From Nitrosomonas sp. Nm34 (GTDB lineage: Bacteria > Pseudomonadota > Gammaproteobacteria > Burkholderiales > Nitrosomonadaceae): 64,000 nucleotides of DNA. The stretch covers positions 62,001-126,000 of the forward strand of contig NZ_FORD01000003.1 in assembly GCF_900113925.1 (NCBI RefSeq), given 5' to 3'. Of the stretch, positions 4,994 through 22,461 are shown one piece after another. Position 1 is the first letter of the stretch, and each line of letters begins with the position of its first letter. The position numbers were made by a program, and so were the translations under genes. Below the pieces are notes generated by a model that made no database searches, was not told the DNA's origin, and saw nothing but the letters and a program-made list of their open reading frames with translations.

Positions 4994-5354
4994 TTAAACA
5001 TCGTACTTACTCAATTTCCGGGAAATTTCTGATTGCTCTTGTTTTCTTTCCAGATGCTTTTCACATCTTTTCTCATGATGATACGTTTTCATTTCTTGCA
5101 GTTTGGTATTTTGCTCAGGAGTTAATATCTTTTTTAATCGTGATTGAGTTTCCTCACGAATTGCTTTGTGTTTGTCGCCCTGCTCTTGAAAAGGGCTTCA
5201 ATTTTTGCTTTTTGATCTTCACTTAACCTCAGTTCTCTATTGAGCCGCTCTATTTTTTTAGTGCGATATTGTTCATGATTTCCTCGCCTGGATGTGCGAC
5301 TACCGTCAAAGGAAATGCTAAAATAATTACCATACCATATAGTTTTGCATGCAT
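4994..5354 (-). pseudogene. Frameshifted Spy/CpxP-like periplasmic protein
   Basis: Reading down from the ATG at 5352-5354 gives a signal peptide (MHAKLYGMVIILAFPLTVVA) with an AGGAG Shine-Dalgarno upstream. The frame then breaks in an A7 run near 5262 and again near 5190. Joining the three frames gives RLNRELRLSEDQKAKIEALF, then KHKAIREETQSRLKKILTPEQ, that is, two LTxxQ-like segments (LSEDQ and LTPEQ), which are the hallmark of Spy/CpxP chaperones and metal-stress sensors. The reading ends at TAA 4994. Both breaks would have to be sequencing errors for the gene to be intact. Confidence 0.7.
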
Positions 5355-5545
5355 AGCCCAGTTCTCCTAATGATTAATGATAATCAAGTAGTTAATTGCT
5401 ACTCTTGAGTTGAGGTAATAAATGCGCATACAGTTTGCAGCAACTGTGAAAAAAATATGGAAGTGAAGTGTATGACTAAATTTCAAATCTATCGATGAAT
5501 ACTTCTCATGAATGAAAATTTGGTTTAAGTGAGTGCGCCAATGTC

Positions 5546-6373
5546 ATGAATAGAAAGAATCGGTGTATATCTTCACGCTACCACTTAACCGATCAAGAAT
5601 TCGCTGAGTTAGAGTTTGAACACCGTCATACTACCGATAAGCGTTATGTTGGTCGGGTTAAGGCTGTTTATCTGTTAGAAAAAAGGGTGGTCGGCCACCA
5701 GGCTTGCACAAGCCCTGTTGATTGAGCGTGAAACGGTACGCAATCACTTCAAGCGATAGGGTAAAGGCGGGTTGGCTGCCTTGCAAAGAAACGACGCTGG
5801 CGGCAGCGACGCTGCGCTTACAGAGGAACAGCAGCGGTTGCTGGATCAGCATCTGCGTGAGAATTTCTATCTCACTGCCAAAGAAATCGCGCATTACGTG
5901 GAGCAGACGTGGCCAGGATCACCAAATTTCGAGCAACACAGGTCGACAACGCATCAACCTCAATGGCGCTATCGATTGCGCTGGACTATCCCAATCATTC
6001 GCTATTGACACGGTCCATGCACAATCCACGATAGCGTTGTTGCAACAGATCGAGCAACAACATCCCGCTGCTGCCCGTATATACGTCATCTGTGATAATG
6101 CCCGCTATTATCGCTCTCAGCTCGTTACTGAACACTTAACACTTGTTAAATTCAAAAATCGAATTGATCTTCCTGCCACCTTATGCACCCGATCTGAATC
6201 TGATCGAGCGCTATTGGCGATTCTTCAAAAAAGAAATTCTGTATGGCAAGTACTGTCAAACTTTTGCCTTGATCAAGCAAGCTTGCGATGATTGCTTTGC
6301 TGCTTCCAACTGCCATAGGGAAGCGCTACGCTCCTTGTTAACCGATAATTTTCAGATTATCGATTGCGCTTGA
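5546..6373 (+). pseudogene. Degenerate IS630-family transposase
   Basis: The pieces lie in several frames. The N-terminus starts at the ATG at 5546 (YHLTDQEFAELE). A helix-turn-helix region lies around 5700-5920 (ERETVRNHF, LTEEQQRLLDQHL, TAKEIAHYVEQTW). The DDE core follows (LNGAIDCAG, YVICDNARYYRS), and the C-terminal block (LPPYAPDLNLIERYWRFFKK) is in the frame ending at 6373. At least three frameshifts and an internal deletion between HYVEQTW and the catalytic core make it inactive. Confidence 0.8.
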
Positions 6374-6524
6374 GTGCCGAAATTTGAAGTGCGGCTAGTA
6401 TAGAAGAAAAAGGTTAAGCGTCATTGTATGCTATAGTAATTTCTGCTGCTTATGGTTTAAAGCAGCGCCGGTTTTCTTGATGTTTTTATCAGTCATATAT
6501 TTGTTATCTTTAGGAGGAACAACA

Positions 6525-7019
6525 GTGAAACAGATACTATTCTCTTTTGTTTTTTTGGGGTTGCTGTTTGTATTGCCAGCTTGGGTTATAGCCGGAGAGC
6601 ACCAATCTGCGCGTGGCAGTCAAGTACAGGCTGCCGGACCATATAATCTGGAGCTGATCGCAAAGGATGGTCAATTGCAGCTGTATGTCACCGATCGCAT
6701 GCAAAATGCAGTGCAAACTAGCGGAGGCTCGGCAATTGCCAATATTATTGACAAAGATGGCAATCGCGCTACTGTCCAGCTAAAGCCAGTTTTTGGCAAT
6801 ATCATGAGAGGGTCTGGGGATTTCAAGATAACCCCGGATACAAAGATATCTGTGCTCCTCGCAATGGATGTAAAAGGCACGCATGTGGCTCGTTTCACTT
6901 TCAAGGGAGAACCAGCTTTCAAGGGGGAACCAGAAACTGCGCCCGCGCAAACGACTGAAAGCGACAATCATCCACCACATGAAGGCGCTTCCGAAAACGG
7001 ATCTTCCGATGAAGATTGA
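6525..7019 (+). CDS. Periplasmic hypothetical protein, 164 aa
   Basis: The GTG at 6525 is the chosen start because an AGGAGG lies eight bases upstream; the open frame reaches back to 6477 without a ribosome site. A signal peptide (FSFVFLGLLFVLPAWVIAG) precedes a beta-rich domain (about 35-130; AGPYNLELIAKDGQLQLYVTD) and a disordered His/Asp/Glu-rich tail (HPPHE, SSDED). From memory, similar proteins sit near heavy-metal efflux (CzcCBA/CusB-type) genes, so a role in metal handling is possible, but no such genes are in this window. Confidence 0.7.
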   Translation: MKQILFSFVFLGLLFVLPAWVIAGEHQSARGSQVQAAGPYNLELIAKDGQLQLYVTDRMQNAVQTSGGSAIANIIDKDGNRATVQLKPVFGNIMRGSGDFKITPDTKISVLLAMDVKGTHVARFTFKGEPAFKGEPETAPAQTTESDNHPPHEGASENGSSDED

Positions 7020-7358
7020 AATTAGATAGCAATTTATTCCGTCAGCTAAGTGGTCCGATGTGACATTTAGCTGACGGTCGATAGGGCTCCAAAAAATGGG
7101 AGCTTTTCTACGATCAGCCAAAGCAAATAGTGGAAAAACAGGTAGTTATTTGTTGCAGTGTACTGCGAATCTATTAAAATAAAAGACTGCAACTGACGGA
7201 TTATCAACCGTTTATCTGCCACAGCCTCCCTTATCAAACTGGACAGGCGCTCCTCCCGCATACGGCTTTGCGATGTTTTCTTCCTTAAGCATTGAACTTA
7301 ACGCATCCTATCGCACCAACTTCTTAAGCAGGACAATTTCATGGCTCCTACTTTAGTT
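7020..7358. other. Gene-free stretch
   Basis: About 340 bp with no gene I can support. A 64-codon minus-strand frame (7067-7261) begins with an Arg-rich segment but has no Shine-Dalgarno; it may be debris of another element. An IS982-type terminal repeat begins at 7359. Confidence 0.4.
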
Positions 7359-7474
7359 AACGTGAGTTCGACATAAGAATCATCACATCACGGCAGGAAA
7401 AACCTGAGAAAATCTAATACTAAGAAAGATCTCTTCTCGATAATAATGATGAAACTCTCTACCAAAATCTATTT
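7359..7474. repeat. Left half of an IS982-derived miniature element (copy C)
   Basis: It starts AACGTGAGTTCGACATAAG, the IS982 terminal repeat, and matches copy A through the ATAATGATGAAACTC segment. It then stops abruptly where the larger IS982 copy begins at 7475, so two related elements are joined head to tail. Confidence 0.65.
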
Positions 7475-8321
7475 AACGTAAGTTCGACATAAAGATCATA
7501 GCACCACGCCTAGAAGAGTTTGAGGGTTTCTGATATTAAGGGAGGGTTTCTTCTCACGAAAAGTATAAGCCACCAGCCCGGCTATCAGATTAACAAAGAA
7601 GTTAAGTGGACTGCGATGACGGGAATGCTCGATTTGCGAGATTTAACCCCGATCACCAAAGAGTTTTCCAAAGAAGAAGTGCGCCAGTTCCAGTACCGGA
7701 TCACGGGCATCCACATTGCCTGCTGTTATTTTTACCCCAGCAATTCTTGCCTGGTCATTGATAACCAGGTGCAGCTTGAATCCATAAAACCAACCCACGC
7801 TGGTCTTTCCCTGGGCAGCAAGCCTGCCATTACTTTATGTGACTAAATACGCTGGTTGTGACACACGCTGATCCTGATGGAATCAATGAAACTGATCCCA
7901 CTGCAGCGCCCGAAGCGACTGGTCAGAAAACAGCACAAAGGTACCAGGCTACCTTGCGGCAACTCAACAAAGCGGTGGTCGCTCACCAACCTTGGAAAAT
8001 AACCCCGCTGATGCCTCAACACGTCATTCAGGTAATAGTGCTTAAACGTCCGGTACCGGATAGATGAGACCCCACCATGATGGTCATGACTTCACTTAGA
8101 CACAGCTCCCCTCGGCGACGACGCCGTTTTAGCGATGACCCCGACAAACGTCGCTCCTACCTCGGCTCAAACTCTTTACAAAAATCGTCAATTGCACAAA
8201 AAATCATTAGCATAGTATCCATCGGATCTGATCCTCCTAATGAGGAAACTCTTTTTGAAAATCTTTTCCTCATAAGGAATTCAGGTCCCTTTTGCTGCTT
8301 TTCTTATCCTGAACTCACGTT
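7475..8321 (-). mobile_element. Degenerate IS982-family insertion sequence
   Basis: This is an 847 bp element bounded by AACGTAAGTTCGACATA (7475) and its inverse TGAACTCACGTT (ending 8321). It carries a single transposase gene on the minus strand, broken by a stop codon and frameshifts. The length is slightly under the ~1 kb usual for the family, so some sequence has been lost. Its right end interrupts the 3' end of the nucleotidyltransferase gene. Confidence 0.8.
7496..8222 (-). pseudogene. Broken IS982-family transposase
   Basis: The ATG at 8222 follows an AGGAGG. The N-terminus reads IFCAIDDFCKEFEPR and then an in-frame TAG; the same frame continues LCLSEVMTIMVGSHLSG. Frameshifts follow, after which the family blocks TFKHYYLNDVLRHQRGYFPR, VGWFYGFKLHLVIND, ITAGNVDARDPV, FFGKLFGDRG and [13 protein letters not shown] can be read. 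Part of the region between GDRG and the C-terminal block is missing. These blocks identify the IS982 family. Confidence 0.8.
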
Positions 8322-8625
8322 GTAATACCCCATAATCCCGTTTGACCTCATCCCGGAAGGCTACTGGCAAATGCGCCCAGTCATGGACTTCTATCAGTAT
8401 CGGCAAACTGCTTTCTTGTAATGCTTCAATCAAATCACCTCAACCAGCCACTTCAGTCGTCAGAACGTTGGGATTACGCAATACGAGATCCAGATCACTG
8501 CCTTCATGTGCCGAACCATGGGTTCAACTGCCAAAAACCCAGACTTCGGCTTCGGGCACATGTATTGCCAGCGAGCGCTCCAGTTGTGCCGTATGACGAT
8601 CTGCCAGCTCAATCCACTTGCTCAT
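8322..8625 (-). pseudogene. MNT-type nucleotidyltransferase (HEPN partner), broken
   Basis: The ATG at 8625 overlaps the end of the HEPN gene by 17 bp. The frame reads EVWVFGS-stop-THGSAHEG then SDLDLVLRNP, the GSx-(10)-DxD signature of a minimal nucleotidyltransferase, followed by a second in-frame stop (EVAG-stop-GDLIEAL) and then PILIEVHDWAHLPVAFRDE. Both stops are TGA; the first replaces the Arg usual after GS (CGA to TGA). The C-terminus (DYGVLQ) runs directly into the IS982 end. In intact pairs this protein AMPylates and silences the HEPN RNase. Confidence 0.75.
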
Positions 8626-8986
8626 TGGGAAGATGCTTCAGGGTATCAGCCAACTCTCTCGCATCGTTAATAAATTGTGGCAGCAGTTTAAGAGTCTGAT
8701 TGGCAAAACCCTCCCCATAGTCGTGCGCAGCAGTATTGCGGTTAGCGCGGTATGCGAGCCAGCGCTCGACGCCATCCATATCGAGAAGCCCATGCCTTCC
8801 TGCCATACGCAGCACATCGTTAAACACTAACCCGTCCACGGCACGTGGGTTACCGCTATAGGATTTGAGTGTCTCACGCAACAACTTGCCGATCGCTTCA
8901 AGCGACAATTCCAGACTCTTGATCGCTGCATTGCGGTAGAGATCATAAAGTATGTCGTCATTGTCGAGACGTTGCAGCGCAATCAA
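8609..8986 (-). CDS. HEPN-type protein of a HEPN/MNT pair (N-terminus uncertain)
   Basis: The 125-residue helical protein shows HEPN features: NAAIKSLELSLEAIGKLLRE, LRMAGRHGLL and the RNxxAHDYG segment (RNTAAHDYG), close to the family's catalytic RX4-6H. Such proteins pair with the nucleotidyltransferase encoded just downstream and usually act as RNase toxins. The frame is open further upstream (LNVDPFLRTITTLEQAL, typical of the family) to a TGA near 9042, but offers no ATG. The listed TTG start at 8986 is therefore probably too late, or the 5' end is damaged. The partner gene is broken. Confidence 0.65.
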   Translation of the reverse strand: MIALQRLDNDDILYDLYRNAAIKSLELSLEAIGKLLRETLKSYSGNPRAVDGLVFNDVLRMAGRHGLLDMDGVERWLAYRANRNTAAHDYGEGFANQTLKLLPQFINDARELADTLKHLPNEQVD

Positions 8987-9082
8987 CGCCTGCTCAAGCG
9001 TAGTGATGGTACGCAGGAAGGGGTCAACGTTCAGCGGCGTTCAATATCCTTCAGTAACTTTAGTCATTTTTATGGTATGCCA

Positions 9083-9183
9083 TTCCTTTTCTAAATTAAA
9101 ACTGACTTTATCGGCTTCACCTTGCCGTATGATTGATCCTGTCCGTGGCTCGCCTTCGCGTCATTTTTGATTTAGAAATGGAA
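9083..9183. repeat. Dispersed ~100 bp palindromic-ended repeat, copy 1
   Basis: The ends are TTCCTTTTCTAAATTAAAA and its inverse TTGATTTAGAAATGGAA, around a conserved core (TATCGGCTTCACCTTGCCGT ... GGCTCGCCTTCGCGTCA). It matches copies at 13163, 25501, 47598 and 51170. It has no coding capacity. Confidence 0.8.
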
Positions 9184-9247
9184 TCACGTCAACATAACAG
9201 GATTAATGCGAATGTTAGCTGCCACTATTATTACTTCAAAGTCATCA

Positions 9248-10117
9248 TTATGCTTTTACCAGCACTGTCAGTGCACCGGTTAGTCCTTCGACTACGCGCG
9301 CCATCTCGGCATAGTTGAGCTCTCCAGGGGTATCACCGGCCCGATGATAGTGCGGGTAGCGATAGAATGCTGTATCGGTGACCATCACTGCCTGATAACC
9401 TTGCCGCCAGAACGAAATCTGATCACTCCAGGAAACGCCCGGCACAATAGTGGGGCTGGCAAGCGTCTCGTACGGAAAATCTGAGCTGGCAGCGAACGCC
9501 GCCGCGAATTGTTTGAGCGCATGGCGTGAATTGAGGTTGGACACGAAGCCGATGAAATTGCCACGATCAGGATAGAGCCAGCGCAGTAAGGGAGGATAGC
9601 TCTGGCTGCCTGGCTCTTCGCTGTAGCAGCCGAGCATCTCGAGCGAGAGCATGAGACGGATATTATCATGTCGCTCACGTGCAGCCTGCGCATAAATCTT
9701 GCTTCCCATTTCACCGATATAGAAGAATGGCGATTCTTCATTCACAAACGCCACTAGCCGCAGTGTGCGCTCAGGTTTGACTCCGACAAGAAATCGTGCG
9801 ATCTCGAGTAGCGCGGCCACGCCGGAAGCGTTATCATCTGCGCCCGGGCTGCCCGACACGGTATCATAGTGTGCGCCAGCGAGCACAATCTCACCGGCCT
9901 GCTCCCTGCCGTATATCTCGATCTCGAGATTCTCGCTCCATACGCCGCCTGCATCATAGCCCTGAGCGTGAACTTCATAGCCTAACTGGCTCCAGGTATC
10001 ATGAATATAGTCGGCAGCAGCGTACAACGCTTTCGGCCGCCACACGTTGCGCTCGCCGATCTCACTCGCAAGCTTTTCAACATGCAGCTGCAACCGCTGT
10101 TCAAGTAGTGGTTTCAT
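9248..10117 (-). CDS. M28-family zinc aminopeptidase
   Basis: The 289-residue protein has the di-zinc M28 fold without a signal peptide, so it is probably cytoplasmic. Visible ligands are H83 and D85 (HYDT), D94 (PGADDNASG), E127/E128 (NEES), E160 (SLEMLG) and H258 (YHRAGDT). It is the last gene of a four-gene operon and overlaps the MJ1316-domain gene by 4 bp (ATGA). A strong AGGAGGT precedes the start. Its substrate is unknown, and its link to the RNA-end genes upstream is unexplained. G+C is visibly higher than in flanking genes. Confidence 0.85.
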   Translation of the reverse strand: MKPLLEQRLQLHVEKLASEIGERNVWRPKALYAAADYIHDTWSQLGYEVHAQGYDAGGVWSENLEIEIYGREQAGEIVLAGAHYDTVSGSPGADDNASGVAALLEIARFLVGVKPERTLRLVAFVNEESPFFYIGEMGSKIYAQAARERHDNIRLMLSLEMLGCYSEEPGSQSYPPLLRWLYPDRGNFIGFVSNLNSRHALKQFAAAFAASSDFPYETLASPTIVPGVSWSDQISFWRQGYQAVMVTDTAFYRYPHYHRAGDTPGELNYAEMARVVEGLTGALTVLVKA

Positions 10118-10383
10118 TTTGTTTTACCTCCTGGATGTCGTTTCCAGATAATCATCCCATCTCGCCAAACTTTTCGCACCCGATGAAACGGGACAGTATG
10201 TAATGTGCCATCTTCCTCTTCCGCTTCGAAGGCAAAGTGCTGACCTGGCTCGATGATTATTCGCTCGAGTGGTACACGCTTGTGCTGGTGCTCGATTTTA
10301 TCCTCATAGGCAAGCTCAAATTTTCCCTTCCCGAATTCCGGATCCCAGCGGATGCGCGCGAGCAGCTCGTGAATCGGGATCAT
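10114..10383 (-). CDS. MJ1316-domain (DUF504) protein
   Basis: This 89-residue protein is a complete stand-alone MJ1316 domain, recognised by IPIHELLARIRWDPEFGKG, then ERIIIEPGQ, and VPFHRVRKVWRDGMIIWKR. The domain is commonest in archaea and has been predicted from gene neighbourhoods to recognise cyclic-phosphate RNA ends. Here it lies directly behind rtcA with a 4 bp overlap, which fits that prediction. It has a high density of Arg/Lys/His. Its biochemical role is not proven. Confidence 0.8.
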   Translation of the reverse strand: MIPIHELLARIRWDPEFGKGKFELAYEDKIEHQHKRVPLERIIIEPGQHFAFEAEEEDGTLHTVPFHRVRKVWRDGMIIWKRHPGGKTK

Positions 10384-11420
10384 AATAATTCTCTACGTAA
10401 TTTCACAGTAATGTATGCCAGATCCGGCGATTCAGTTACCTCGAACGTTACCGGCAGAAACTGTTCTATCAGCCACATCGCGGTACGCGCATGCAGTGAG
10501 ACATGGCGCGTGCTGAATGAGCCACTACCTATAAGCGCGAGATAAACAAGTATTTGATCAGCTGCGTGGATATCGAGCGCAGTACCCGCGGAAATATCTG
10601 TAGCAAGCTCTTCCCCCACAGCCTCACCCAACGTCTCCGCAGTGACGCCCCGCTCTGCGACCCGCGCTGCACCCCGCACAGTATGCTCACTCTCGAGCCA
10701 GCAGGTGACGGCGCCCCCTGCACCAAAAGCTGCTTCACGACCCAAAACCTGCGTCTCGATCCTCGCGTGCGCACCGTATGTGCCAAGCCGGTTAAGTACC
10801 GCCTGCTTCATTCGTAGCGCAATATGCTCAGGAAGATTAGTCACGTGCGCAAGCCCGCAGATGGTCTTGCTATATCCAGACGCATCGAACACTGCGGATG
10901 AGAGCATTGCCGGCTTTACTGCGAGCTCGATCTGGCCACCACCTTGTGGATAGTAGCCGCGGCGCAGCACGCGCATGGTCACCTGTGCACCGAGTCGTTT
11001 GATCAGCGGGATAAGCACTGCGCGCAAGTAATCCGCAGCGGGTGCCTGCCGCACGTCAGTACCGCCGGTGATATGCACCTTGCAAGGCAGGTGGATCGCC
11101 AGCATGACCGGCAGCAAGGCTTGCAGCACCAGCGTAATGCTGCCTGCCGTGCCCACATCAAAGCGATAATCGCCACCCCGAAGCATTGCCGGCTCGAAAA
11201 CAATTTGGTCTGATCGCAAGGTGAGGCCTTCGATGCTCGCACCGCAGAGCTTGCCTACGGCGTGCACCCCGGCAAGGTGCTGTGCAGCAAGGCCGGGTTT
11301 GTCGCGTCGTGCACGAATATTCATGATACGCACATCGATACCAGTAATGGCAGACAATGCGACGGCAAACCGCAGGAGCTGACCACCGCCTTCGCCATAA
11401 CTGCCATCAATCTCAAGCAT
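10380..11420 (-). CDS. rtcA: RNA 3'-terminal phosphate cyclase
   Basis: The enzyme uses ATP to convert RNA 3'-phosphate ends to 2',3'-cyclic phosphates through a covalent His-AMP. The 346 residues cover the full family: the Gly-rich N-terminus GSYGEGGGQLLR (6-17), RARRDKPGL, RYYPQGGG-like RRGYYPQGGGQ (153-163), and the C-terminal SLHARTAMW with H310 in the position of the E. coli catalytic H309. A GGGGGT ribosome site lies five bases upstream. No rtcB ligase or rtcR regulator is adjacent, unlike the E. coli rtc operon. It is visibly G+C-rich. Confidence 0.92.
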   Translation of the reverse strand: MLEIDGSYGEGGGQLLRFAVALSAITGIDVRIMNIRARRDKPGLAAQHLAGVHAVGKLCGASIEGLTLRSDQIVFEPAMLRGGDYRFDVGTAGSITLVLQALLPVMLAIHLPCKVHITGGTDVRQAPAADYLRAVLIPLIKRLGAQVTMRVLRRGYYPQGGGQIELAVKPAMLSSAVFDASGYSKTICGLAHVTNLPEHIALRMKQAVLNRLGTYGAHARIETQVLGREAAFGAGGAVTCWLESEHTVRGAARVAERGVTAETLGEAVGEELATDISAGTALDIHAADQILVYLALIGSGSFSTRHVSLHARTAMWLIEQFLPVTFEVTESPDLAYITVKLRRELL

Positions 11421-11423
11421 AAG

Positions 11424-12314
11424 CTACCCCCAGAGAGAATAGCGGTGCGCGCCTGGCTTGAGGCTCGGAATACGTTGAGCGGCATCGAGCATCACCCGTG
11501 CGACAAATGTCGCAACGTCAAACCGTCCCTCCAGCAGCAACGTGGCATGCGCACCTGTTCGCTCAGTACCGATACGTTCGAGCAGGATACCGCGGCCTTC
11601 CTCCTCCAGGGCGGCAATGCTTTCCACTTCGAACACCCGTGTCTGCTCACCGACGAAGAGCGGATCAGCAGCGAGAGCAGCCTCAACTTTATCGAGCAAC
11701 CTCCTGTCTGAGTCCTCTACATTCTTTGCGTCCTTTACGTTCTTTGCGAACTCAACATAGACATAGCGGGTCAGTTGCCCCTGCCCGTCACGCATCTCGG
11801 TGGCAAGTGCACCTTTTATACCTTCGATGTTTTCTACCATTTCGGTATGATGTAGGCTCGCACTTGGTCGGCTGGTGCGCTTGGTGCGGCCATCAGGAAT
11901 TAAGGTGGTAAACGCGCGCTCGAACAAAGGCAGCATGCCCGGATTCCATCCTGCCCCAACAATAGCGCACGTATGATGATGGCGCGCCGCATTGCCGATG
12001 GCATCATAATGCGTCTCAAGTGAAGGCCCTTCCAGCACCGCATTCTCAACGATCGGTATTTCTGCCTGGAGCAATTCGCGTGCTACGCCAAGGACGATCT
12101 CTGCAGGCACACAGATCAAGGCGACATCAACACGCTTCAAGTCACGGATGTGCGTAACTACCAGAATCTTGCCAAGTGGATCGGGCAATTTCATTGGTGA
12201 AACTGGACGTCGAACCACCCCAGCCAATGCCAGATAATCGATATTACGTAATGCCATTGCACAAGCACGTCCTACTCGCCCAAAGCCGATGACCGCAATG
12301 TTAAGCTTCGCCAT
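11424..12314 (-). CDS. Diaminopimelate-dehydrogenase-like oxidoreductase
   Basis: The 296-residue protein has an N-terminal Rossmann fold (VIGFGRVGRA, 8-17) and a DapDH-type domain: ALICVPAEIV, IVENAVLEGP, AIVGAGWNPGM, SLHHTEMVENIEGIKGALA. True meso-diaminopimelate dehydrogenases share this layout, but the VDSFD and GMSMGH substrate segments are changed here (VENAV, ASLHHT), so the substrate may differ. It is the first gene of the operon, with a GGAGGG ribosome site and a 3 bp gap to rtcA. An NAD(P)-linked oxidation of an amino acid or related compound is the safest description. Confidence 0.7.
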   Translation of the reverse strand: MAKLNIAVIGFGRVGRACAMALRNIDYLALAGVVRRPVSPMKLPDPLGKILVVTHIRDLKRVDVALICVPAEIVLGVARELLQAEIPIVENAVLEGPSLETHYDAIGNAARHHHTCAIVGAGWNPGMLPLFERAFTTLIPDGRTKRTSRPSASLHHTEMVENIEGIKGALATEMRDGQGQLTRYVYVEFAKNVKDAKNVEDSDRRLLDKVEAALAADPLFVGEQTRVFEVESIAALEEEGRGILLERIGTERTGAHATLLLEGRFDVATFVARVMLDAAQRIPSLKPGAHRYSLWG

Positions 12315-12431
12315 GAGTCTTCCCTCCGTACCTCTTTAGGAAAAGTATTCGCTGAGCGGTGTAATTTTTTGGTTATCTTCCTGTTCGACCTCTCTTTTTA
12401 CATCAAGTGCCATCCAGAATAAGTACGCATC

Positions 12432-13013
12432 CTAAGGTTTAATTTTTGTTCCCAGCACTTGCAGGAATTTGGCGAGCCAATCAGGATGTGCCGGCCAACC
12501 CGGGGCAGTAATCAGCTTGCCATCGACATGGGCCTGATCCATCGGAATATCCCTATACGTTCCACCTGCACGTGTGACATCCGGTGCTACCGCCGGATAA
12601 GCAGAACATGCCTTACCCTCGATGACTCCGGCCGCCACCAGCAGTTGCGCGCCATGGCAAATGGCGGCAATAGGTTTATTCGCTTCTGAAAAATGTTGCA
12701 CGATTTTGATGACTTTTTCATTCAGACGAATATACTCAGGCGCGCGCCCGCCAGGAATGACCAGCGCATCATAATCTTCTGCCTTAACCTTGGTGAAAGT
12801 GGCATTCAGCGTAAAGTTGTGGCCTGGTTTTTCGCTATAGGTTTGATCTCCCTCAAAGTCATGTATGGCCGTGCGCACAGTCTCGCCTGCTTTCTTTTTA
12901 GGGCAGACCGCATGGACGGTATGCCCCACCATCAACAGCGCTTGGAATGGCACCATGACCTCATAGTCTTCCACATAATCGCCTACCAGCATCAAGATTT
13001 TTTTTGCACTCAT
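12432..13013 (-). CDS. DJ-1/PfpI-family protein
   Basis: About 193 residues with the class I glutamine-amidotransferase-like fold. The nucleophile elbow [10 protein letters not shown] carries the conserved Cys, and the upstream acidic residue is in DYVEDYEV. Family members include glyoxalase/deglycase-like stress proteins and PfpI peptidases; which activity applies cannot be told from sequence. Two ATGs are adjacent; AAGGAG lies six bases before the second (13013), which is preferred. The gene is single, with ordinary base composition, just outside the G+C-rich operon. Confidence 0.85.
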
Positions 13014-13162
13014 CATGAACTCCTTTCTTTTTATTGTGTTTTACAAGTTGCCTCTCTGGCAGCTATTGTAGCGAATGGGGTGCGGTAATGGATCGACCGA
13101 TAGTCGATCCAAGCTGGCTAATGCTGAGAAATTGCGAGCAGTTATAGCACATCACGGTAAAA

Positions 13163-13261
13163 TCCATTTCTAAATTAAAGCTGACTTTGTCGACTTCGCC
13201 TTCCGTTTCATGGGTACGGTCTGCGGCTCGTCTTCACGTCATATTTTATTTAGAAATGGAA
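13163..13261. repeat. Dispersed ~100 bp palindromic-ended repeat, copy 2
   Basis: The ends are TCCATTTCTAAATTAAA and TTTATTTAGAAATGGA, with the core CTTTGTCGACTTCGCCTTCC...CGGCTCGTCTTCACGTCA. It has the same orientation and nearly the same length as copy 1. Confidence 0.8.
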
Positions 13262-13344
13262 TCACTGGCTGATCATAAAGATAAGAGAGTGTCTCCAGCA
13301 GCCGGACTGATGCTCAGCTCTCTTGTTGAAATTAACGACGAGAC

Positions 13345-14379
13345 TTAAGGTTTACGGCCACTCACGATACTATAATAGCCAAAAGCTTTCTGAATTTGAA
13401 TTTGCTCAAATCCGATTTCCCTCAGCATCGCTGACAATTCCTGACCGGAATATTGCTTGCCCTCAGTCCAACCCAGCATTATCATACTGAATGCTGCGGC
13501 AGCGAAAGGACCAGTTTTTTCATCATTATAGAGCATCTCATGAATAACGATCCGTCCGCCCGATTCCAGACGATTGAAACTTTTCGCCATCAAAAAGTGA
13601 CATTTTTCTGGCAACCAATCGTGAAACATATTGGAGAAAAAGTGCAGATCGGCAGCAGGCCAATGATCGCGCCAGATATTGATCTCACACGTTTTAACGC
13701 GATCCTGCAGCTTGTACCGGGTAATATAGTCCTGCGCAATCTCACACACTTGGGAAAAATCCAGGATATGTGCCTGTAAGTCTGGCCAACGCAAGGCTGC
13801 ACCAATCGAATGCGCGCCAGAACCTCCTCCAATATCCAGCATCATCCGGTGCTGGGATAAATCCATGACTTGTGGCCAAACGAGCGCTGGCGTCATGCTG
13901 ATACTGTGCATGCCGCAGGTGAAGCGTCGAAGCAATTCAATCTGCTCCTCATGAGATTTGAAAATATCGCCCCCTCCGTATGCCTGGGCAGAATCGGTAA
14001 GGGCAGCTTTCTCCAGACCCGCATAGGTAGATACTTGGTAATTGTCGATCATCAGATCCCAAAAAAATCCGAAGTAATTAGGACTGTCTTCGAGCAGATA
14101 TTCCTTACTAACCGGGGTCAGCGAATAGCGCCCCTCTTGTAAGGATAAGAAGCCTAATGCAGTCGCCGTCGTCAATATTGCTTCGGCCGGACGCGGCGCT
14201 ACGTCCAGTGCCGTACAAATTTCCGGCAAAGTATGGGAATTTTGAGCTAATAAAGGAAAAATTTTCAACCGATGCGCCAGTAACAAGGCTGGATAACCAT
14301 AAATCGCAAAGATCACATCCCAGAGTGGACGGTCATCCACCTGCGGTACCTGGATACTGGAAAAATTATCTCGCGCCAT
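13345..14379 (-). CDS. S-adenosylmethionine-dependent O-methyltransferase (COMT-like)
   Basis: 344 residues. An N-terminal winged-helix dimerisation domain (about 20-105; EICTALDVAPRPAEAIL) precedes a class I Rossmann methyltransferase domain. The SAM-binding motif is MLDIGGGSGAHSIGA, and later family blocks are FSNMFHDWLPEKC (catalytic His in HDW) and GRIVIHEML. The relatives are acetylserotonin/caffeate O-methyltransferases and bacterial hydroxyneurosporene or antibiotic methyltransferases. The substrate is unknown. The SRPBCC gene 115 bp upstream on the same strand may belong to the same unit. Confidence 0.82.
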   Translation of the reverse strand: MARDNFSSIQVPQVDDRPLWDVIFAIYGYPALLLAHRLKIFPLLAQNSHTLPEICTALDVAPRPAEAILTTATALGFLSLQEGRYSLTPVSKEYLLEDSPNYFGFFWDLMIDNYQVSTYAGLEKAALTDSAQAYGGGDIFKSHEEQIELLRRFTCGMHSISMTPALVWPQVMDLSQHRMMLDIGGGSGAHSIGAALRWPDLQAHILDFSQVCEIAQDYITRYKLQDRVKTCEINIWRDHWPAADLHFFSNMFHDWLPEKCHFLMAKSFNRLESGGRIVIHEMLYNDEKTGPFAAAAFSMIMLGWTEGKQYSGQELSAMLREIGFEQIQIQKAFGYYSIVSGRKP

Positions 14380-14493
14380 GAATTCTCCTTTTATGACTAC
14401 AAGTGACTGACAGAACGGGCCAAACGTCAGGATGTATTTTTTATCAATAATTAACCAATCGTTGTGCTTCTATACTGCTCAGGTTGCAGAACT

Positions 14494-14988
14494 TTACATT
14501 GATTTTTCTGCCTCTACCAGGCGCTTGATATTCTGAACGGTACGTTCAGCCCCATCTTTTATAGCAGAACGAACTAATCCCTCGAAAGGCCGCATGACAA
14601 CTAACAATTCCAGCAACTCAAAAGAAAACGTCAGCTTAGTAGATCCCTCAGGATTCATATCCTGCAATTCATAGGTACAGCGAAAGGGATCAGACACACC
14701 GGCCAATACCAAGCGTACACCCGGTTCAAAAGTAAAAATTTTGAAGCGTGATTCGCTGCGGCGCCCCATATCAAGACGCACTTGCCGCCCAAGCGTACCC
14801 AGTTGTACTGGACCGGGCGTGAGCTGCTCAAGCTCTTGAACTTCCGGCGACCATTTTGGATAATTCTGGAACAGATCCTCACCCAGATATTTGAATAGAT
14901 CTTTCGTCGAACATTCCACTAAAGTGGAAGCTCTTCCTATGATCGGCTCTGTAGAGCCCAAGTTGAGCATGTTACCTAAATTGAACAT
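14494..14988 (-). CDS. SRPBCC (START-like) family protein
   Basis: 164 residues forming one helix-grip domain typical of polyketide cyclase/dehydrase-like or CoxG-like lipid-binding proteins: STLVECSTKDLFKYL at the N-terminus, WSPEVQELEQL, and a long C-terminal helix (IKDGAERTVQNIKRLVEAE). Such proteins bind hydrophobic ligands. The start is either of two ATGs (14988 or 14970), with no strong ribosome site at either. It precedes the O-methyltransferase gene on the same strand. Confidence 0.7.
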   Translation of the reverse strand: MFNLGNMLNLGSTEPIIGRASTLVECSTKDLFKYLGEDLFQNYPKWSPEVQELEQLTPGPVQLGTLGRQVRLDMGRRSESRFKIFTFEPGVRLVLAGVSDPFRCTYELQDMNPEGSTKLTFSFELLELLVVMRPFEGLVRSAIKDGAERTVQNIKRLVEAEKSM

Positions 14989-15248
14989 GTTACAAGAGTT
15001 CCTTCTGCCTGGTTGATATCCGACTCAGCATCTGCGAAGAATGAAATTCCGCTAAAATGAAGCTTCGCTAACAGATTTGTTCATAACTTTTCAGCCAATT
15101 TCTTGACGATGAGCCTAGACCTTAAACGAATCAGAGATCAGTTTCAAGTTCTTCGTATAAAAATATTGCTTGAATCAGCTCGCTCGCACCACCAGTTCGT
15201 GCTTAGTATAAATAACTAAAACTTTATTCCTGAACCTCTTGATAGCTT

Positions 15249-16031
15249 ATGATATGGAAACTGAAAAAGTGGTGGCGAAACTATATCTTCCAGCATGAAC
15301 CGATCGCTGAAGCCATCTGGCAGAAAGTGCTAGCACGCTTGCACTTTCTGCAAGGATTGACCCAGCCTGAAATCCTACAGTTGCGGCGATGGACGACCAT
15401 TTTCTTGCACGACAAGAAAATAAATGGTGCGCAGGGTCTCATCGTCACCGAAGAAATGCGCGTAATGATCGCGATCCAGGCCTGTATGCTGATTTTGGAA
15501 CTTGATCTGGACTATTATCGCAACTGGCTGGAAATCATCGTCTATCCAGGAGAATTCATTCTTGATTATGAATATACCGATGAAATGGGCATCGTTCACG
15601 CTGTACACATGGCCGCATCAGGCGAATCATGGCTTGCTGGACCCGTCATTCTTTCGTGGGAAGATGTCAACAATACCAATAATAAACAGGGATATAATGT
15701 GGTAATACATGAGTTTGCACATAAGCTGGATATGTTGAATGGGACGGCCAATGGTTGCCCTCCCCTGCATAGGAATATGGATCCACGCGCCTGGGCTGCG
15801 GCCTTTACGCAAGCTTTTGAGGCTTGCTGTAATCAGCTCGATAAAGGAGATGAGCTGGTTATCGATCCTTATGCCGCGACCAGTCCGGCAGAATTCTTTG
15901 CAGTCATGAGTGAAGCTTTTTTTGTCAAGCCATATGCAATACAGCAATATTTTCCTCAAGTCTATCAGCAATTGTCTGCCTTCTATCGCCAGAACCCAGC
16001 GATGCGGTGGCCAACGGGAGTTAACTTGTGA
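15249..16031 (+). CDS. mtfA: MtfA-like zinc metallopeptidase (M90)
   Basis: 260 residues matching the MtfA family (gluzincin-like peptidase). The zinc motif HEFAHKLDM is clear (HExxH), with the third ligand expected in the SPAEFFAVMSEAFF helix. In E. coli MtfA binds the glucose repressor Mlc and affects glucose PTS expression. Here the gene overlaps the glucokinase gene by 4 bp, so the link with glucose metabolism is kept in a presumed chemolithotroph. No signal peptide; probably cytosolic. Confidence 0.88.
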   Translation: MIWKLKKWWRNYIFQHEPIAEAIWQKVLARLHFLQGLTQPEILQLRRWTTIFLHDKKINGAQGLIVTEEMRVMIAIQACMLILELDLDYYRNWLEIIVYPGEFILDYEYTDEMGIVHAVHMAASGESWLAGPVILSWEDVNNTNNKQGYNVVIHEFAHKLDMLNGTANGCPPLHRNMDPRAWAAAFTQAFEACCNQLDKGDELVIDPYAATSPAEFFAVMSEAFFVKPYAIQQYFPQVYQQLSAFYRQNPAMRWPTGVNL

Positions 16032-17035
16032 ACAACTATTTTATTTATGGTGATATCGGTGGCACCAAGACACTATTGCGTGCAGAAGTAGCTGACGGTA
16101 ACAAAACGGATTTATGTTACGAACGGCGCTATGACAGCCAAGCTTATGCTGATTTCGACACGATACTCGCCGATTTTTTGGACAAAGCGGAACTGAATCA
16201 AGCCGGCCACTTTCCAATATCAGCTTGTTTTGGAATAGCAGGCCCAATCGTGTCACAACGAGCCAAACTGACCAATCTGCCATGGTTGATGGACGCATCC
16301 GCTCTTGCGGTCAAATTTTCTATTCCCAAGGTAAAGCTGATCAATGATTTCGAAGCGATCGCATTAGGTATTGAAAAGTTATCCCTGAATGATCTGGCAG
16401 CGCTGCAATGGGGAATCGCAGAGAAGCAAGCAATGCGGGTAGTATTAGGCGCGGGTACCGGTATGGGGGTTGCCTGGCTTCATTGGCAAGGCGATCGTTA
16501 TATTCCGTTATCCACAGAAGGAGGGCATATTGAGTTTGCCCCTGCCACCTCCTTGCAGATGGAATTACTGGATTATCTGATGAAAAAATTTGATCATGTC
16601 TCGGTCGAGCGGGTTCTTTCAGGACCAGGACTGACCAATATCTTCAACTTCCTGCAAAGCGACCCAACCAGATTTCCCGGCATCACCGCTGAGGAATATA
16701 AGGAGGACAGCGGCGCCATCATCACTCAGCTGGCCTATGAGCAACAACACCCGATTGCACTGCAAGCATTGGAGTTGTTTGTTGAAATTTATGGTGCCTA
16801 CGCCGGTAATCTGGCACTGTTGGGATTATGTCGGGGCGGCGTGTATATTGCTGGCGGGATTGCACCCAAAATCATCGACACCTTGTTGACGGGTAATTTC
16901 ATGCATGCTTTCCGCCACAAAGGGCGGTACTCAGAAATGATGAGCGAGATCCCGGTTCATGTCATCATGAACCCGCAAGTGGGCTTACTGGGCGCTGGTC
17001 TCGAAGCGCAGCGATTGATAAAGACCAGTACTTGA
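16028..17035 (+). CDS. glk: Glucokinase
   Basis: 335 residues of the bacterial (hexokinase-like) glucokinase family, which phosphorylates glucose with ATP to glucose 6-phosphate. Visible blocks: the phosphate loop GDIGGTKTLLRAE at the N-terminus, FGIAGPI, LINDFEAIALGI, LGAGTGMGVAWLH, STEGGHIEFAP, ERVLSGPGL and GGVYIAGGIAPK. The start is a GTG whose last base begins the mtfA stop TGA, giving translational coupling. In an ammonia oxidiser it probably serves intracellular glycogen or sucrose turnover rather than growth on glucose. Confidence 0.92.
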   Translation: MNNYFIYGDIGGTKTLLRAEVADGNKTDLCYERRYDSQAYADFDTILADFLDKAELNQAGHFPISACFGIAGPIVSQRAKLTNLPWLMDASALAVKFSIPKVKLINDFEAIALGIEKLSLNDLAALQWGIAEKQAMRVVLGAGTGMGVAWLHWQGDRYIPLSTEGGHIEFAPATSLQMELLDYLMKKFDHVSVERVLSGPGLTNIFNFLQSDPTRFPGITAEEYKEDSGAIITQLAYEQQHPIALQALELFVEIYGAYAGNLALLGLCRGGVYIAGGIAPKIIDTLLTGNFMHAFRHKGRYSEMMSEIPVHVIMNPQVGLLGAGLEAQRLIKTST

Positions 17036-17160
17036 TTAGTCAATTCGGTCACTTTAAACCGGTATGGAAAAATGTATTCGAGGCAACAGACGCGCAGGCA
17101 GACCGACAAAGAATCAGATTGGGTTTGGAAAAAAACACATGATTAAAAAGATATAGCAAT

Positions 17161-17835
17161 ATGGATAGTTATGAAGCATTAATGGCCACTTTGGCGCTCA
17201 CCATGGGCGCATCGTGGGCAAGCGGTATTAATTTGTATGCCGTCATGCTGGTGCTGGGTCTTGGCGGCGCCACAGACAATATCAGCTTACCAGCCGAACT
17301 CAGCGTGATAGAAAATCCACTGGTAATCGGGGCAGCGGCAGTGATGTATATGGTCCAGTTTTTTATCGATAAAATACCCGGTCTGGATAGCGCCTGGGAC
17401 ACCCTGCACACTTTTGTCCGCATCCCTGCAGGCGCCATGTTGGCAGCCGGTACGGTGGGTGATGTGTCTCCCGCAATGGAAATCGCCGCGGGCATTCTGG
17501 GCGGTGGTGTCGCCGCTACCAGTCACGCCACCAAGACGGGCACCCGCTTGATGCTCAATACCTCACCCGAACCGGTCACAAACTGGTCTGCCTCCATCAG
17601 CGAAGATTTGTTGGTGTTAGGCGGCTTATGGACTGCATTGAACCATCCCATATTATTCCTGATCCTGCTTGTTATTTTTATCGGCCTCGCTATCTGGCTA
17701 TTGCCCAAATTGTGGAAATTTATTAGAGGAGTGTTACTCAGAATAGGTAAATTCTTTGGAATGACAAACGCTAGCGCTACTGAAACTGGTCATGGCGCTG
17801 CGTCATTTACTGAAAGCAAGCATGAGGGCAAATAG
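17161..17835 (+). CDS. DUF4126 membrane protein
   Basis: 224 residues recognised as DUF4126 by LTMGASWASGINLYAVM, the charged FFIDKIPGLDSAWDTLHTF loop and ATSHATKTGTR. About five membrane segments are visible (roughly 8-35, 55-75, 93-118, 140-160, 160-182), followed by a cytoplasmic tail. Function unknown. It lies 125 bp after glk on the same strand. Confidence 0.8.
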   Translation: MDSYEALMATLALTMGASWASGINLYAVMLVLGLGGATDNISLPAELSVIENPLVIGAAAVMYMVQFFIDKIPGLDSAWDTLHTFVRIPAGAMLAAGTVGDVSPAMEIAAGILGGGVAATSHATKTGTRLMLNTSPEPVTNWSASISEDLLVLGGLWTALNHPILFLILLVIFIGLAIWLLPKLWKFIRGVLLRIGKFFGMTNASATETGHGAASFTESKHEGK

Positions 17836-20000: not shown

Positions 20001-20357
20001 CTTATAAATAGGTAGAGTGGGGTCAAGCTGTGACAAGAAAAATGATTTTATACTACAGACTACATTGTCAAGACCACTCCGTTTAGTGCCGCAGAGAGCA
20101 ATAAGCGAAGCCATATTGCGGCCCCATGACAAAGTTTAACATTCGGCGCAATACGCTTCGCTATTACGCCCTACACGAGCTACTATTGCTTACAAAAACA
20201 GGTATATACAGCCAGCGAAAAACTGGAGGATTTTATAAATTGCACCAAACGACGATTAGGGCTATTCTTCGCAAAAACAAAAATTATTGGTGCCGGATCT
20301 TGCTCTTCCTGTGTAGATACATGTAATTTTACTTACACATCGCAATTATTCCATGAT
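20001..20357. other. Intergenic stretch with hairpin repeat
   Basis: The 357 bp hold no gene I can support (a 66-codon frame at 20126-20326 starts inside the hairpin). A compact imperfect hairpin, GGCGCAATA-cgcttcgc-TATTACGCC, lies at 20145-20170, and a second GCGAAG...ATTGCG arm at 20104-20120 can pair with it. A+T content rises sharply towards 20350. Confidence 0.5.
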
Positions 20358-20369
20358 GTGGAAAATAAA

Positions 20370-20909
20370 ATGAAGAAACAAATTTTACATATTGCCCAAC
20401 AAATCCCTCTATTTGGATCTGTCTTTGCTTTTCGATTTATAGTTCTAAAGAAAGCTTTATCCCAATTAATTGTGGTGTGGACTCTTTCTTCTCTCCCTAT
20501 CATTTTTACTATCGTTGAATCAGTGTTTTTCGAAGAAAAATCTTTTAATATTGCTTTGTTAAATACTTTGAATGTGACAGTTTTGTTTATCTATACCGCT
20601 GCATTCTTAGCACCTGTAATTTGGTTATGTATTGATAGAGTTGTATATCCAAAAACACAAAAAGCGTTTCCAGGGATCATTTGGATCTTTTTAACAGCCT
20701 TTATTTTCTTACTATTTTCAGCTTGGGGATTTGATAATTCAAAATTTCGCCTTAATGAAATTTGGCAAGAAGTAACACTGACAATTTATTTCTTATCGTT
20801 ATATTTTTGGTTCTTAACAATCGCAGATAGTTGCAATGCTGACTTTGATTTTGTTTCTAATGCGCGTGAACAAGAAATAGATTTTGTTAAGAAAGTAACA
20901 AATGGATAA
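20370..20909 (+). CDS. Four-helix membrane protein paired with DGQHR protein
   Basis: About 179 residues; the frame also allows a GTG at 20358, but the ATG at 20370 has a GGA seven bases upstream. Four membrane helices are visible (about 35-55, 72-92, 106-123 and 140-156 counted from the GTG), with a basic N-terminus (KKQILHIAQQ) and a C-terminal acidic/basic soluble tail of about 25 residues. I do not recognise the family. It overlaps the following DGQHR gene by 8 bp, so the two are coupled. Composition is A+T-rich and unlike its neighbours, a sign of transfer. A role as a membrane-damaging effector or membrane anchor is inference. Confidence 0.7.
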   Translation: MKKQILHIAQQIPLFGSVFAFRFIVLKKALSQLIVVWTLSSLPIIFTIVESVFFEEKSFNIALLNTLNVTVLFIYTAAFLAPVIWLCIDRVVYPKTQKAFPGIIWIFLTAFIFLLFSAWGFDNSKFRLNEIWQEVTLTIYFLSLYFWFLTIADSCNADFDFVSNAREQEIDFVKKVTNG

Positions 20910-22113
20910 AAATAAGATGTCAAAAAAAAATTCTAGAATAGAGATAAATGTCCTTAAGGCTAAACAGCCTATCGGTGATTTTTTTGTAGCATCAATGAAG
21001 CCAGATGAATTGGTGGATATTTCTTTTGCAGACATACGTAGGATTGAAGAAAGAGATATTGAAAAATACCTCGGGATTCAGAGGCCTCTCAATAAAACTA
21101 GAGTCAAACAGATAAAAGAATATATCCAAGGAAAAGAAGCTACGTTTCCAACGTCAATTATTTTAGCTGTAGATGAAAAATGTGCAGAATATAACGAAGA
21201 AAACCAGATTTTAACTCTTTATCCTTATGAGGCGGATGAGGAAAGCAATGAAGAGTCAATTGAATTTAGAAAAATAGCTAAAGTTTTAGATGGTCAACAC
21301 AGAATTGCTGGATTTTTAGATGATAATGACAACTATTCTTTAAATATTGGCAGAACTTTTGAACTTAATGTTTCAATTTTTGTTGGGATTGATGTTTCAG
21401 AACAAGCTAACATTTTTGCTACAGTTAATTTAGCTCAAACTAAAGTAAACAAAAGCTTGGTCTATGACCTTGAAGAATTATCAAAAATACGTAGTCCCCA
21501 TAAAACATGCCATCTCATCGCGGTGGCGCTCGATGCCGATCCAGAAAGCCCATTACACCAGAGAATTAAGCGCCTGGGCGTAGCAACACCGGGAAGAGAA
21601 TTTGAACCCCTTACACAGGCAACTGTTGTTGAGTCATTGGTAAAATTTTTATCACCAGATCCTTTCCAAGATAGAAGGCAGCTTTTAGAAGGTCATAGAT
21701 TACAAAAAGTCGATATTGATCATCTACGAAAGTTTCCTTTTAGAAATTTGTTTATAGATGGAAATGACGAAGCTATATACAAAATACTGTTTAATTTCTT
21801 TAAAGCAGTCGAAAATAAATGGCCAACCGCTTGGAATGAGTTGCAACGAAAAGGAAACCTATTGCCAAAATCTAATGCGTTTAATGCACTTATGAAGTTT
21901 CTAAAAAATAATGTTTATTTAGAACTGGCAGGAAACAACATTGGAACTATTCCATCTCAAAATGAATTTGCAAATTTTTTTCATAACATTGGTTTAGCTG
22001 ACGAAGATTTTAATACTCGTAATTTTTCTCCTGGCAGTGGTGGTCAATCTGCATTTTACAAACTGTTAACAGGACAATTATCGAAAGAGGATTTTTTTAA
22101 AGATCAGTCTTAA
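20902..22113 (+). CDS. DGQHR-domain (DndB-like) protein
   Basis: 403 residues. The DGQHR signature is at 130-134 (KVLDGQHRIAGF), preceded by KYLGIQRPLNKTRVKQIKEY and followed by SIFVGIDVSEQANIFATVN and NLAQTKVNKSLVYDL, the usual layout of this ParB-like family. DndB, the best-known member, regulates DNA phosphorothioation; other members sit in defence islands with unknown roles. No dndACDE, dpt or ssp genes are nearby. The rest of the protein is helical. A+T-rich, coupled to the membrane-protein gene. The start is the ATG at 20902 or at 20917. Confidence 0.75.
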   Translation: MDKNKMSKKNSRIEINVLKAKQPIGDFFVASMKPDELVDISFADIRRIEERDIEKYLGIQRPLNKTRVKQIKEYIQGKEATFPTSIILAVDEKCAEYNEENQILTLYPYEADEESNEESIEFRKIAKVLDGQHRIAGFLDDNDNYSLNIGRTFELNVSIFVGIDVSEQANIFATVNLAQTKVNKSLVYDLEELSKIRSPHKTCHLIAVALDADPESPLHQRIKRLGVATPGREFEPLTQATVVESLVKFLSPDPFQDRRQLLEGHRLQKVDIDHLRKFPFRNLFIDGNDEAIYKILFNFFKAVENKWPTAWNELQRKGNLLPKSNAFNALMKFLKNNVYLELAGNNIGTIPSQNEFANFFHNIGLADEDFNTRNFSPGSGGQSAFYKLLTGQLSKEDFFKDQS

Positions 22114-22461
22114 ATTATAAATTGCTACTCATGGTCGCACCTTCTGCGCACTTCATCAAAAATAAACAAGATAGTACTCTCGGGACAGCTACTCGCGGCC
22201 TGCATCACCTTTATGTCATCTTTTTCATAACATTTAAAACTTCTTATGTTTTACAATAGATAAATCTCCAAAAAACTGGGCTCCCAAAAAATTGGGTTCT
22301 GGTTGTGAATAAAAAATAAGCACAATACAACACTTCAGCAAATTCAATGGACCAAGTCTTACCACTTTTAAGTGTCTATGATTTAAACCGTGGATTCAAA
22401 TTCAAAGTGCAACTTTTTGAAAGTTGAATTAATTGGAAATTATGCTGAATAAATGTAAGGC
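22114..22461. other. Gene-free stretch after the DGQHR gene
   Basis: About 350 A+T-rich bases. An imperfect inverted repeat around 22275-22305 (CTGGGCTCCC...TTGGGTTCTGG) is the only structure seen. The right edge of the A+T-rich unit must lie here, before folA. Confidence 0.4.

Follow-up and report, generated by a model that had tools for sequence, protein, structure and literature searches.

Enzymes of the RtcA family cyclise 3'-phosphate and 2'-phosphate ends of RNA, and RtcB joins 2',3'-cyclic or 3'-phosphate ends to 5'-hydroxyl ends; in E. coli, RtcB re-ligates rRNA which has been cut by MazF (excerpts of PMC10630183 and PMC9879122). The physiological role of the bacterial RtcA-RtcB couple is called poorly understood in the latter excerpts. 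A further family, the MJ1316 domain (PF04457), was predicted to recognise 2',3'-cyclic RNA ends (Burroughs and Aravind 2016, as related in sections of PMC6514570). Here we describe an operon at positions 9248–12314 of a 64,000-nucleotide stretch of the genome of Nitrosomonas sp. Nm34 (contig NZ_FORD01000003.1, positions 62,001 to 126,000; in the following "the window"), in which genes for RtcA and an MJ1316-domain protein stand between those for a dehydrogenase resembling diaminopimelate dehydrogenase (DapDH) and an M28-family peptidase.

Judging from sequence comparisons, we hold it somewhat better than even that this operon encodes a healing module for RNA 3' ends, which feeds RtcB-archease and has an NADP(H)-dependent protein and a peptidase as accessories. 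The dehydrogenase is statistically linked, by co-distribution, to RtcA, MJ1316 and RtcB-archease, and the recurrence of a partial set in other bacteria suggests that RNA repair may have a helper not yet described. Both repair by RtcA and RtcB and the RNA-end role of MJ1316 have been published before; the dehydrogenase link appears to be new as far as the open literature shows, since a search of it (subscription papers were outside its scope) yielded no description of such a dehydrogenase in connection with RNA repair, nor of this gene set.

Comparison with rtcBA systems

All four genes are on the minus strand and are transcribed in the order DapDH-like dehydrogenase (11424..12314), RtcA (10380..11420), MJ1316-domain protein of 89 amino acids (10114..10383) and M28-family peptidase (9248..10117). 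The DapDH stop is followed after 3 bp by the RtcA start, and the RtcA/MJ1316 and MJ1316/M28 junctions are ATGA overlaps; coordinates and order are thus as an earlier note on this sequence had claimed.

The cyclase was assigned by Pfam (RTC, 3e-76, with RTC_insert) and by the NCBIfam equivalog RNA_3prim_cycl (2.3e-114), and it passed TIGR03399 with 381.9 bits (cut-off 250.05). Its His310 aligns to the histidine at chain position 309 of 1qmh; His309 is the nucleophile of E. coli RtcA, and this position is a first likeness to the rtcBA genes of E. coli and the rsr-yrlBA-rtcBA genes of Salmonella. A second is that RtcB is encoded in the Nm34 genome too. Thirdly, a stress-linked setting has been reported for those systems (parts of PMC9879122 and PMC10630183).

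The differences are considerable. The RtcB of Nm34 is outside the operon and on another contig, and the partner places are taken by MJ1316, M28 and the dehydrogenase. RtcR is not among the annotated flanking genes, although a genome-wide search for it was not made, and the RtcA clade stands apart from all 14 RtcAs sampled from Pseudomonadota (see below). When the whole genome (3.80 Mb, 149 contigs) was searched, RtcB had no match on the contig of the window, but a full-length RtcB with archease was present on contig C69; the statement of the earlier note that RtcB is missing therefore holds for the window and not for the organism. Contigs C35, C42 and C96 contained two more full-length RtcBs (open frames of 407 and 417 amino acids) as well as a broken one. 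Of 61 Nitrosomonas genomes, 37 had RtcB, and in one member of the genus (G019) archease, RtcB and the gene for the ribosome hibernation factor HPF are adjacent.

The dehydrogenase and RNA repair genes

Residues 1–290 of the 296 of the DapDH-like protein are homologous to the meso-diaminopimelate (meso-DAP) dehydrogenase StDAPDH (3wb9, E 6.7e-35), and arginines 35 and 36, which belong to the NADP 2'-phosphate site, are shared by both proteins. The score with TIGR01921, the equivalog of DAP dehydrogenase, was 81.6 bits at a cut-off of 180.6. Ten residues of StDAPDH contacting meso-DAP were taken from a portion of PMC7424261. In the alignment with 3wb9, which is less sure in the C-terminal part, three of them were kept (Trp121, Ser151, Arg181) and seven were replaced (Asp92, Phe146, Met152, Gly153, Thr171, His227, Asn253). 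At several positions the replacements are systematic, and the subfamily has near-invariant residues of its own, as seen in an alignment of 85 rows (Glu173 in 83, Leu154 in 84 and Leu219 in 81; columns 196–201, an insert of the window protein only, were not used). Since only three of the ten contacts are kept, the protein is probably not a DAP dehydrogenase; we conclude that it binds NADP(H) and that its substrate is probably not meso-DAP. The label "diaminopimelate dehydrogenase", which the Cupriavidus copy carries, is probably wrong for this subfamily.

A five-row DapDH alignment was used to search 84,980 species genomes; 91 relatives came out, and the following counts of loci refer to the best 80 of them. 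At least one of RtcA (7 loci), RtcB (10) and archease (9) lay within 3 kb of DapDH in 18 of the 80 loci, compared with a rough Poisson expectation of about 0.5 loci, if four such genes per 3.6 Mb are assumed. The 18 loci comprise five from Nitrosomonas, one from a betaproteobacterial metagenome-assembled genome (MAG), one from Sulfuricella, one from Rhizobacter and ten of Nitrospira type; the independent events are therefore far fewer, about four or five. In three Nitrospira-type loci (L054, L059, L063) the archease match starts 108–138 bp after the DapDH match and is followed by RtcB on the same strand; DapDH and RtcA are adjacent in a betaproteobacterial MAG. Contiguous RtcA and MJ1316 genes were present in three DapDH genomes beyond SKW247, a relative treated below, and divergent ones in a fourth, and MJ1316 and M28 are adjacent in two Sulfuricella genomes.

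Whole-genome searches covered 50 of the 80 DapDH genomes. RtcA occurred in 32 of them, compared with 15 of 299 sampled Pseudomonadota, and MJ1316 in 19, compared with 3 of 398 (the own genome being one of the 15 and one of the 3). If the 30 unsearched genomes are counted as negative, the lower bounds are 32/80 for RtcA and 19/80 for MJ1316. After removal of the five Nitrosomonas genomes 27/45 and 14/45 were left, with Fisher p < 1e-12 each when kinship is ignored. Within the order, as far as membership could be read from record titles, MJ1316 was present in 11 of 22 non-Nitrosomonas DapDH genomes and in 25 of 398 background genomes, some of which have DapDH as well (p 1.4e-7). The draw of 398 genomes contained 55 with some match to the DapDH alignment; strong full-length matches were restricted to the own genome (540 bits) and G277 (329 bits), the next reaching 63, and both of these genomes carry MJ1316.

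Several points weigh against the healing module and should be set beside these figures. The 50 genomes had been picked after the neighbours were seen and hold 17 of the 18 loci; moreover, the RtcA queries differed, a Pfam model being used for the 50 and the window protein for the 299. As the genomes are related, the Fisher values overstate the association. No RtcA, RtcB or archease was within 3 kb in 62 of the 80 loci, some of which have cut flanks, and two of the 18 positive loci rest on partial matches of 46 amino acids (L068, with a full RtcB about 4 kb off, and L092). RtcA was missing from 18 and MJ1316 from 31 of the 50 genomes, and the presence of RtcB in 44 of 50 is without a matched background. 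The same applies to M28, a common family, with any match in 34/50 and a match of at least 45% identity in 21/50. Around MJ1316, finally, M28 adjoins in 2 of the 26 genomes surveyed below (the own and Sulfuricella G050), and 13 of the 26 have none of the recurrent partners beside it.

The earlier note had stated that the outer two genes are without a known link. For the dehydrogenase this now has a partial answer, namely the statistical link with RtcA, MJ1316 and RtcB-archease; the link of the peptidase is weaker. M28 was rejected as a core member, as a common family which was not found in the 20 kb of Nitrosomonas G019.

MJ1316 and other neighbours

The MJ1316 domain was recognised with 75.2 bits (Pfam gathering threshold 26.3; E 6.8e-21) and the M28 domain with 101.5 bits (21.3; E 6.3e-29). 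A sequence search of the PDB with MJ1316 gave no match at E up to 5. An AlphaFold model from six sequences showed an N-terminal helix and six strands, forming a small beta-barrel (predicted local distance difference test 77.3, predicted template modelling score 0.63). Foldseek produced no match to this model at E 0.001 or better, the best being at E 0.068. In VIA-align comparisons SspB reached Z 6.4 (root-mean-square deviation 3.3, 81 aligned) and Hfq Z 4.4 (3.2, 62 aligned); both are below Z 8 and may reflect a mere common arrangement.

In a survey of 399 genomes of the order, which was not conditioned on DapDH, MJ1316 occurred in 26; some loci are near contig ends, and some genera are represented more than once. 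RtcA adjoined MJ1316 in six (the own genome, G634, G696, G592, G823 and G849), archease-RtcB in four (G055, G610, G636, G726), and genes for CBS and HPF in two (G277, G738). The recurrence of the pair bears out the view of the earlier note that RtcA and MJ1316 belong together, and the occurrence of MJ1316 beside RtcA or archease-RtcB agrees with the prediction of Burroughs and Aravind that it recognises cyclic ends (sections of PMC6514570). Taken together, these neighbours (RtcA 6/26, archease-RtcB 4/26, M28 2/26) support a putative RNA-end role for MJ1316 in bacteria and suggest a weaker bond for M28. Three-gene runs of archease, RtcB and MJ1316 were noted in four genomes of the order (L339, L343, L264, L337). 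The locus of G849, from another genus of the same family (L352, 2393–3783), consists of a divergent MJ1316 gene with an internal stop and a partial RtcA gene; it appears to be a decayed relative of the pair, and its RtcA groups with Sulfuricella.

Other genes recur around DapDH. Within 3 kb, PfpI, whose identity is about 30% outside Nitrosomonas, was found in 15 of the 80 loci, HPF (S30AE plus CSD) in 11 and an NMD3-like zinc-ribbon protein in 16; the latter, also known under the name BCAM0308, is assigned to NMD3 by Pfam. One locus (L017, 6323–6817) has this bacterial NMD3-like protein beside DapDH and near HPF. In the window, a DJ-1/PfpI family protein is encoded at 12432..13016 on the minus strand, 117 bp upstream of DapDH, and could be a fifth member of the operon; in two Polaromonas genomes PfpI adjoins RtcA. 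Genes for CBS, THUMP-like (just under the cut-off), metallo-beta-lactamase, BON and PolX-like proteins (the last by eye) were also recurrent near DapDH, RtcA and MJ1316, and glycogen-metabolism genes (by eye) were near RtcA in a few loci. The theme of these neighbours, as read from their families, is ribosome and RNA maintenance under stress.

This variety is what would be expected of the main rival explanation, a shared stress regulon without biochemical coupling, in which dormancy and stress genes are co-induced and travel together; RtcA and MJ1316 would then be an RNA-repair pair, and DapDH, M28 and PfpI would deal with other damage, such as glycated or D-amino acids and peptides. It agrees with DnaK- and DnaJ-like genes (by eye) before DapDH in G277, and with Hsp20, GroEL and formate dehydrogenase near the Cupriavidus DapDH. 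However, the position of RtcA or archease-RtcB beside DapDH in separate lineages and the 3-bp spacing in the window are tighter than a loose island needs. We regard a mere regulon as a serious, though somewhat doubtful, possibility.

Origin, maintenance and proposed function

A tree of 47 RtcA rows was constructed from the DapDH genomes, the 14 sampled Pseudomonadota RtcAs and one archaeal sequence. The window RtcA fell into a group of 26 rows (support 97/95), with 20 betaproteobacterial rows, one of them a duplicate of the window, and six of Nitrospira on a long branch. DapDH had served to select these rows, so what counts is the absence of all 14 Pseudomonadota RtcAs from the group. The RtcAs of six DapDH genomes remained outside (L233, L234, L235, L240, L245, L263), and five which were found only as MJ1316 neighbours (L333, L334, L345, L349, L352) all joined the group, then of 31 rows (95/92). 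In Thiobacillus denitrificans, a culturable relative which has DapDH and paired RtcA and MJ1316 genes, RtcA lies outside this clade.

The RtcAs nearest to those of Nitrosomonas were from SKW247 (L227; Burkholderiales), G823, G634/G696 and a betaproteobacterial MAG (L031). SKW247 as the exact sister, with 99/95 in the 47-row tree, was given up when the support became 80/23 after addition of the five; it is one of the nearest. It also provided the best-scoring RtcA match outside Nitrosomonas (59%, an identity also reached by two other betaproteobacteria). Identities of the window RtcA were 48–59% to full-length betaproteobacterial kin of the clade, 40% to the partial RtcA in G849, 33–40% to the sampled Pseudomonadota rows and 37% to the single archaeal row. 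In the M28 tree SKW247 stood next to Nitrosomonas (98/90) and was the best match outside this genus; for DapDH it had the top identity outside Nitrosomonas (57%) and lay within the sister group (97/91). The branching of the MJ1316 tree was not resolved. RtcA, MJ1316 and M28 are contiguous in SKW247.

Because of this kinship of RtcA, M28 and DapDH with SKW247, the pattern fits a joint inheritance or transfer within the betaproteobacteria. Different nearest relatives without a shared neighbourhood, which the earlier note had named as speaking against its proposal, were not found: SKW247 was best for the three proteins, and parts of the set recur in several lineages. The archaeal or deep-branching origin which that note had suggested for the operon was not upheld, the nearest kin being betaproteobacterial (with one archaeal row in the comparison for RtcA and none for the other genes). 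Two findings count against this rejection. The best PDB match of RtcA was 4o89, an archaeal cyclase (236 bits, slightly above the 224.8 of the E. coli enzyme), and among 14 control genomes MJ1316 occurred in two archaea only; an old archaeal ancestry of the families, which is a separate matter from the source of the operon, is therefore possible.

The closest DapDH matches were from Nitrosomonas communis Nm44 (87%) and Nitrosomonas sp. Nm33 (84%), from which we infer that the own genome belongs to the N. communis lineage. The order PfpI-DapDH-RtcA-MJ1316-M28 is kept in all five named Nitrosomonas loci, one of which (L026) has an additional open reading frame between PfpI and DapDH. In Nitrosomonas G019, DapDH, RtcA and MJ1316 are followed by transposase-like open reading frames (by eye), and no M28 homologue was detected within the 20 kb fetched around the locus. 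Ratios of nonsynonymous to synonymous substitutions (dN/dS) between the window and the five loci were 0.04–0.21 in 24 of 25 gene comparisons, the remaining one being saturated; the five-gene set is under purifying selection, and because of these values the genes can be regarded as maintained. A coincidental transfer, by which four genes without common function were acquired jointly, might be considered because the chemistry of the peptidase and the dehydrogenase has no obvious link with RNA ends. It is already disfavoured and, in our opinion, very improbable, as the order has lasted through a synonymous divergence (dS) of at least 1.4, with saturation in one gene, at low dN/dS, and partial sets recur in other neighbourhoods.

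The G+C content of the operon is 55.4%, compared with 44.1% across the window. Only one of 244 sliding windows of 3067 bp matched this value (9251–12317), and the highest among the 219 clear of the operon was 48.1%, so that the raised G+C reported earlier was evident; in all five named Nitrosomonas loci, too, the operon lies above the rest of the locus. The view of a transferred or mobile-looking operon received support. Raised G+C is also one of the points for a conflict module, which would mend tRNA or rRNA after cleavage by RNases of competitors or by RNases that phages trigger, as was proposed for other Rtc systems (sections of PMC6514570). Others are the patchy occurrence, an operon-type RtcA being present in 3 of 37 Nitrosomonas genomes searched (own included), and, immediately downstream, a HepT-like gene whose MNT-like partner is broken. 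Yet HepT was found in only one of the five other named Nitrosomonas loci, no nuclease toxin was recognised among the inspected recurrent neighbour clusters, some of them named, and the named neighbours are mostly stress and ribosome-maintenance genes; we think a conflict module quite unlikely.

Some features of the surroundings may be added. The HepT-like gene (8609–8986, minus strand) precedes a frame, broken by internal stops, that resembles an MNT nucleotidyltransferase (by eye), the stretch spanning 8200–8986; the HepT adjoining the operon in N. communis Nm44 (L024) is 95% identical. Upstream, from 12432 to 17835, there are PfpI, an O-methyltransferase, a polyketide-cyclase-like protein, an M90 peptidase and two more genes, which are syntenic in G011. 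The region 20250–22250 has about 30–37% G+C and is flanked by regions at 43–48%. An Rfam scan of 5000–16000 gave no match, and a tRNA search of the window found none. Of the six Nitrosomonas sequences upstream of DapDH, five were aligned, L026 being excluded; three close ones align and two do not, and we propose no motif.

Under the reading of a healing module, RtcA would take RNA ends which carry a 3'-phosphate or a 2'-phosphate after ribonuclease action or damage and convert them to 2',3'-cyclic phosphates, as is the activity of its family. The MJ1316 protein, as a small barrel, may hold, sort, present or guard these cyclic ends, and RtcB-archease, which is encoded elsewhere in the Nm34 genome, would seal them. 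The DapDH-like protein, found in association with RNA repair genes, would be a regular accessory of repair and no diaminopimelate enzyme. It could support the repair machinery by its NADP(H), possibly through redox protection of the kind that PYROXD1 gives to human RTCB (excerpts of PMC10630183); M28 would be a looser accessory, perhaps working on associated peptides. The module would be part of a pool of stress-survival genes in betaproteobacteria and Nitrospira, together with HPF, NMD3-like, CBS and PfpI genes, and its probable service would be the recovery of rRNA or tRNA after starvation or oxidative stress.

The comparison with PYROXD1 is one of analogy: both are NAD(P)-binding proteins tied to RtcB-type repair (excerpts of PMC10630183), but PYROXD1 is by name of another family, the pyridine nucleotide-disulphide oxidoreductases, and no relation to the DapDH-like protein is claimed. 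On this analogy, the subfamily might contribute an NADP(H)-dependent redox function to Rtc repair in bacteria, shielding RtcB-archease or RtcA under oxidative or copper stress, or chemically repairing an RNA-end- or ribosome-linked adduct exposed with the help of M28 and MJ1316; this is a speculation that we would rate as rather unlikely.

In this operon of an ammonia-oxidising bacterium, rare partners that recur should provide a concrete handle on the physiology of bacterial RtcA and RtcB, which PMC9879122, in the excerpts cited, describes as poorly understood: a DapDH-like subfamily in which most of the DAP pocket is gone and whose distribution follows that of RNA repair genes in betaproteobacteria and Nitrospira.

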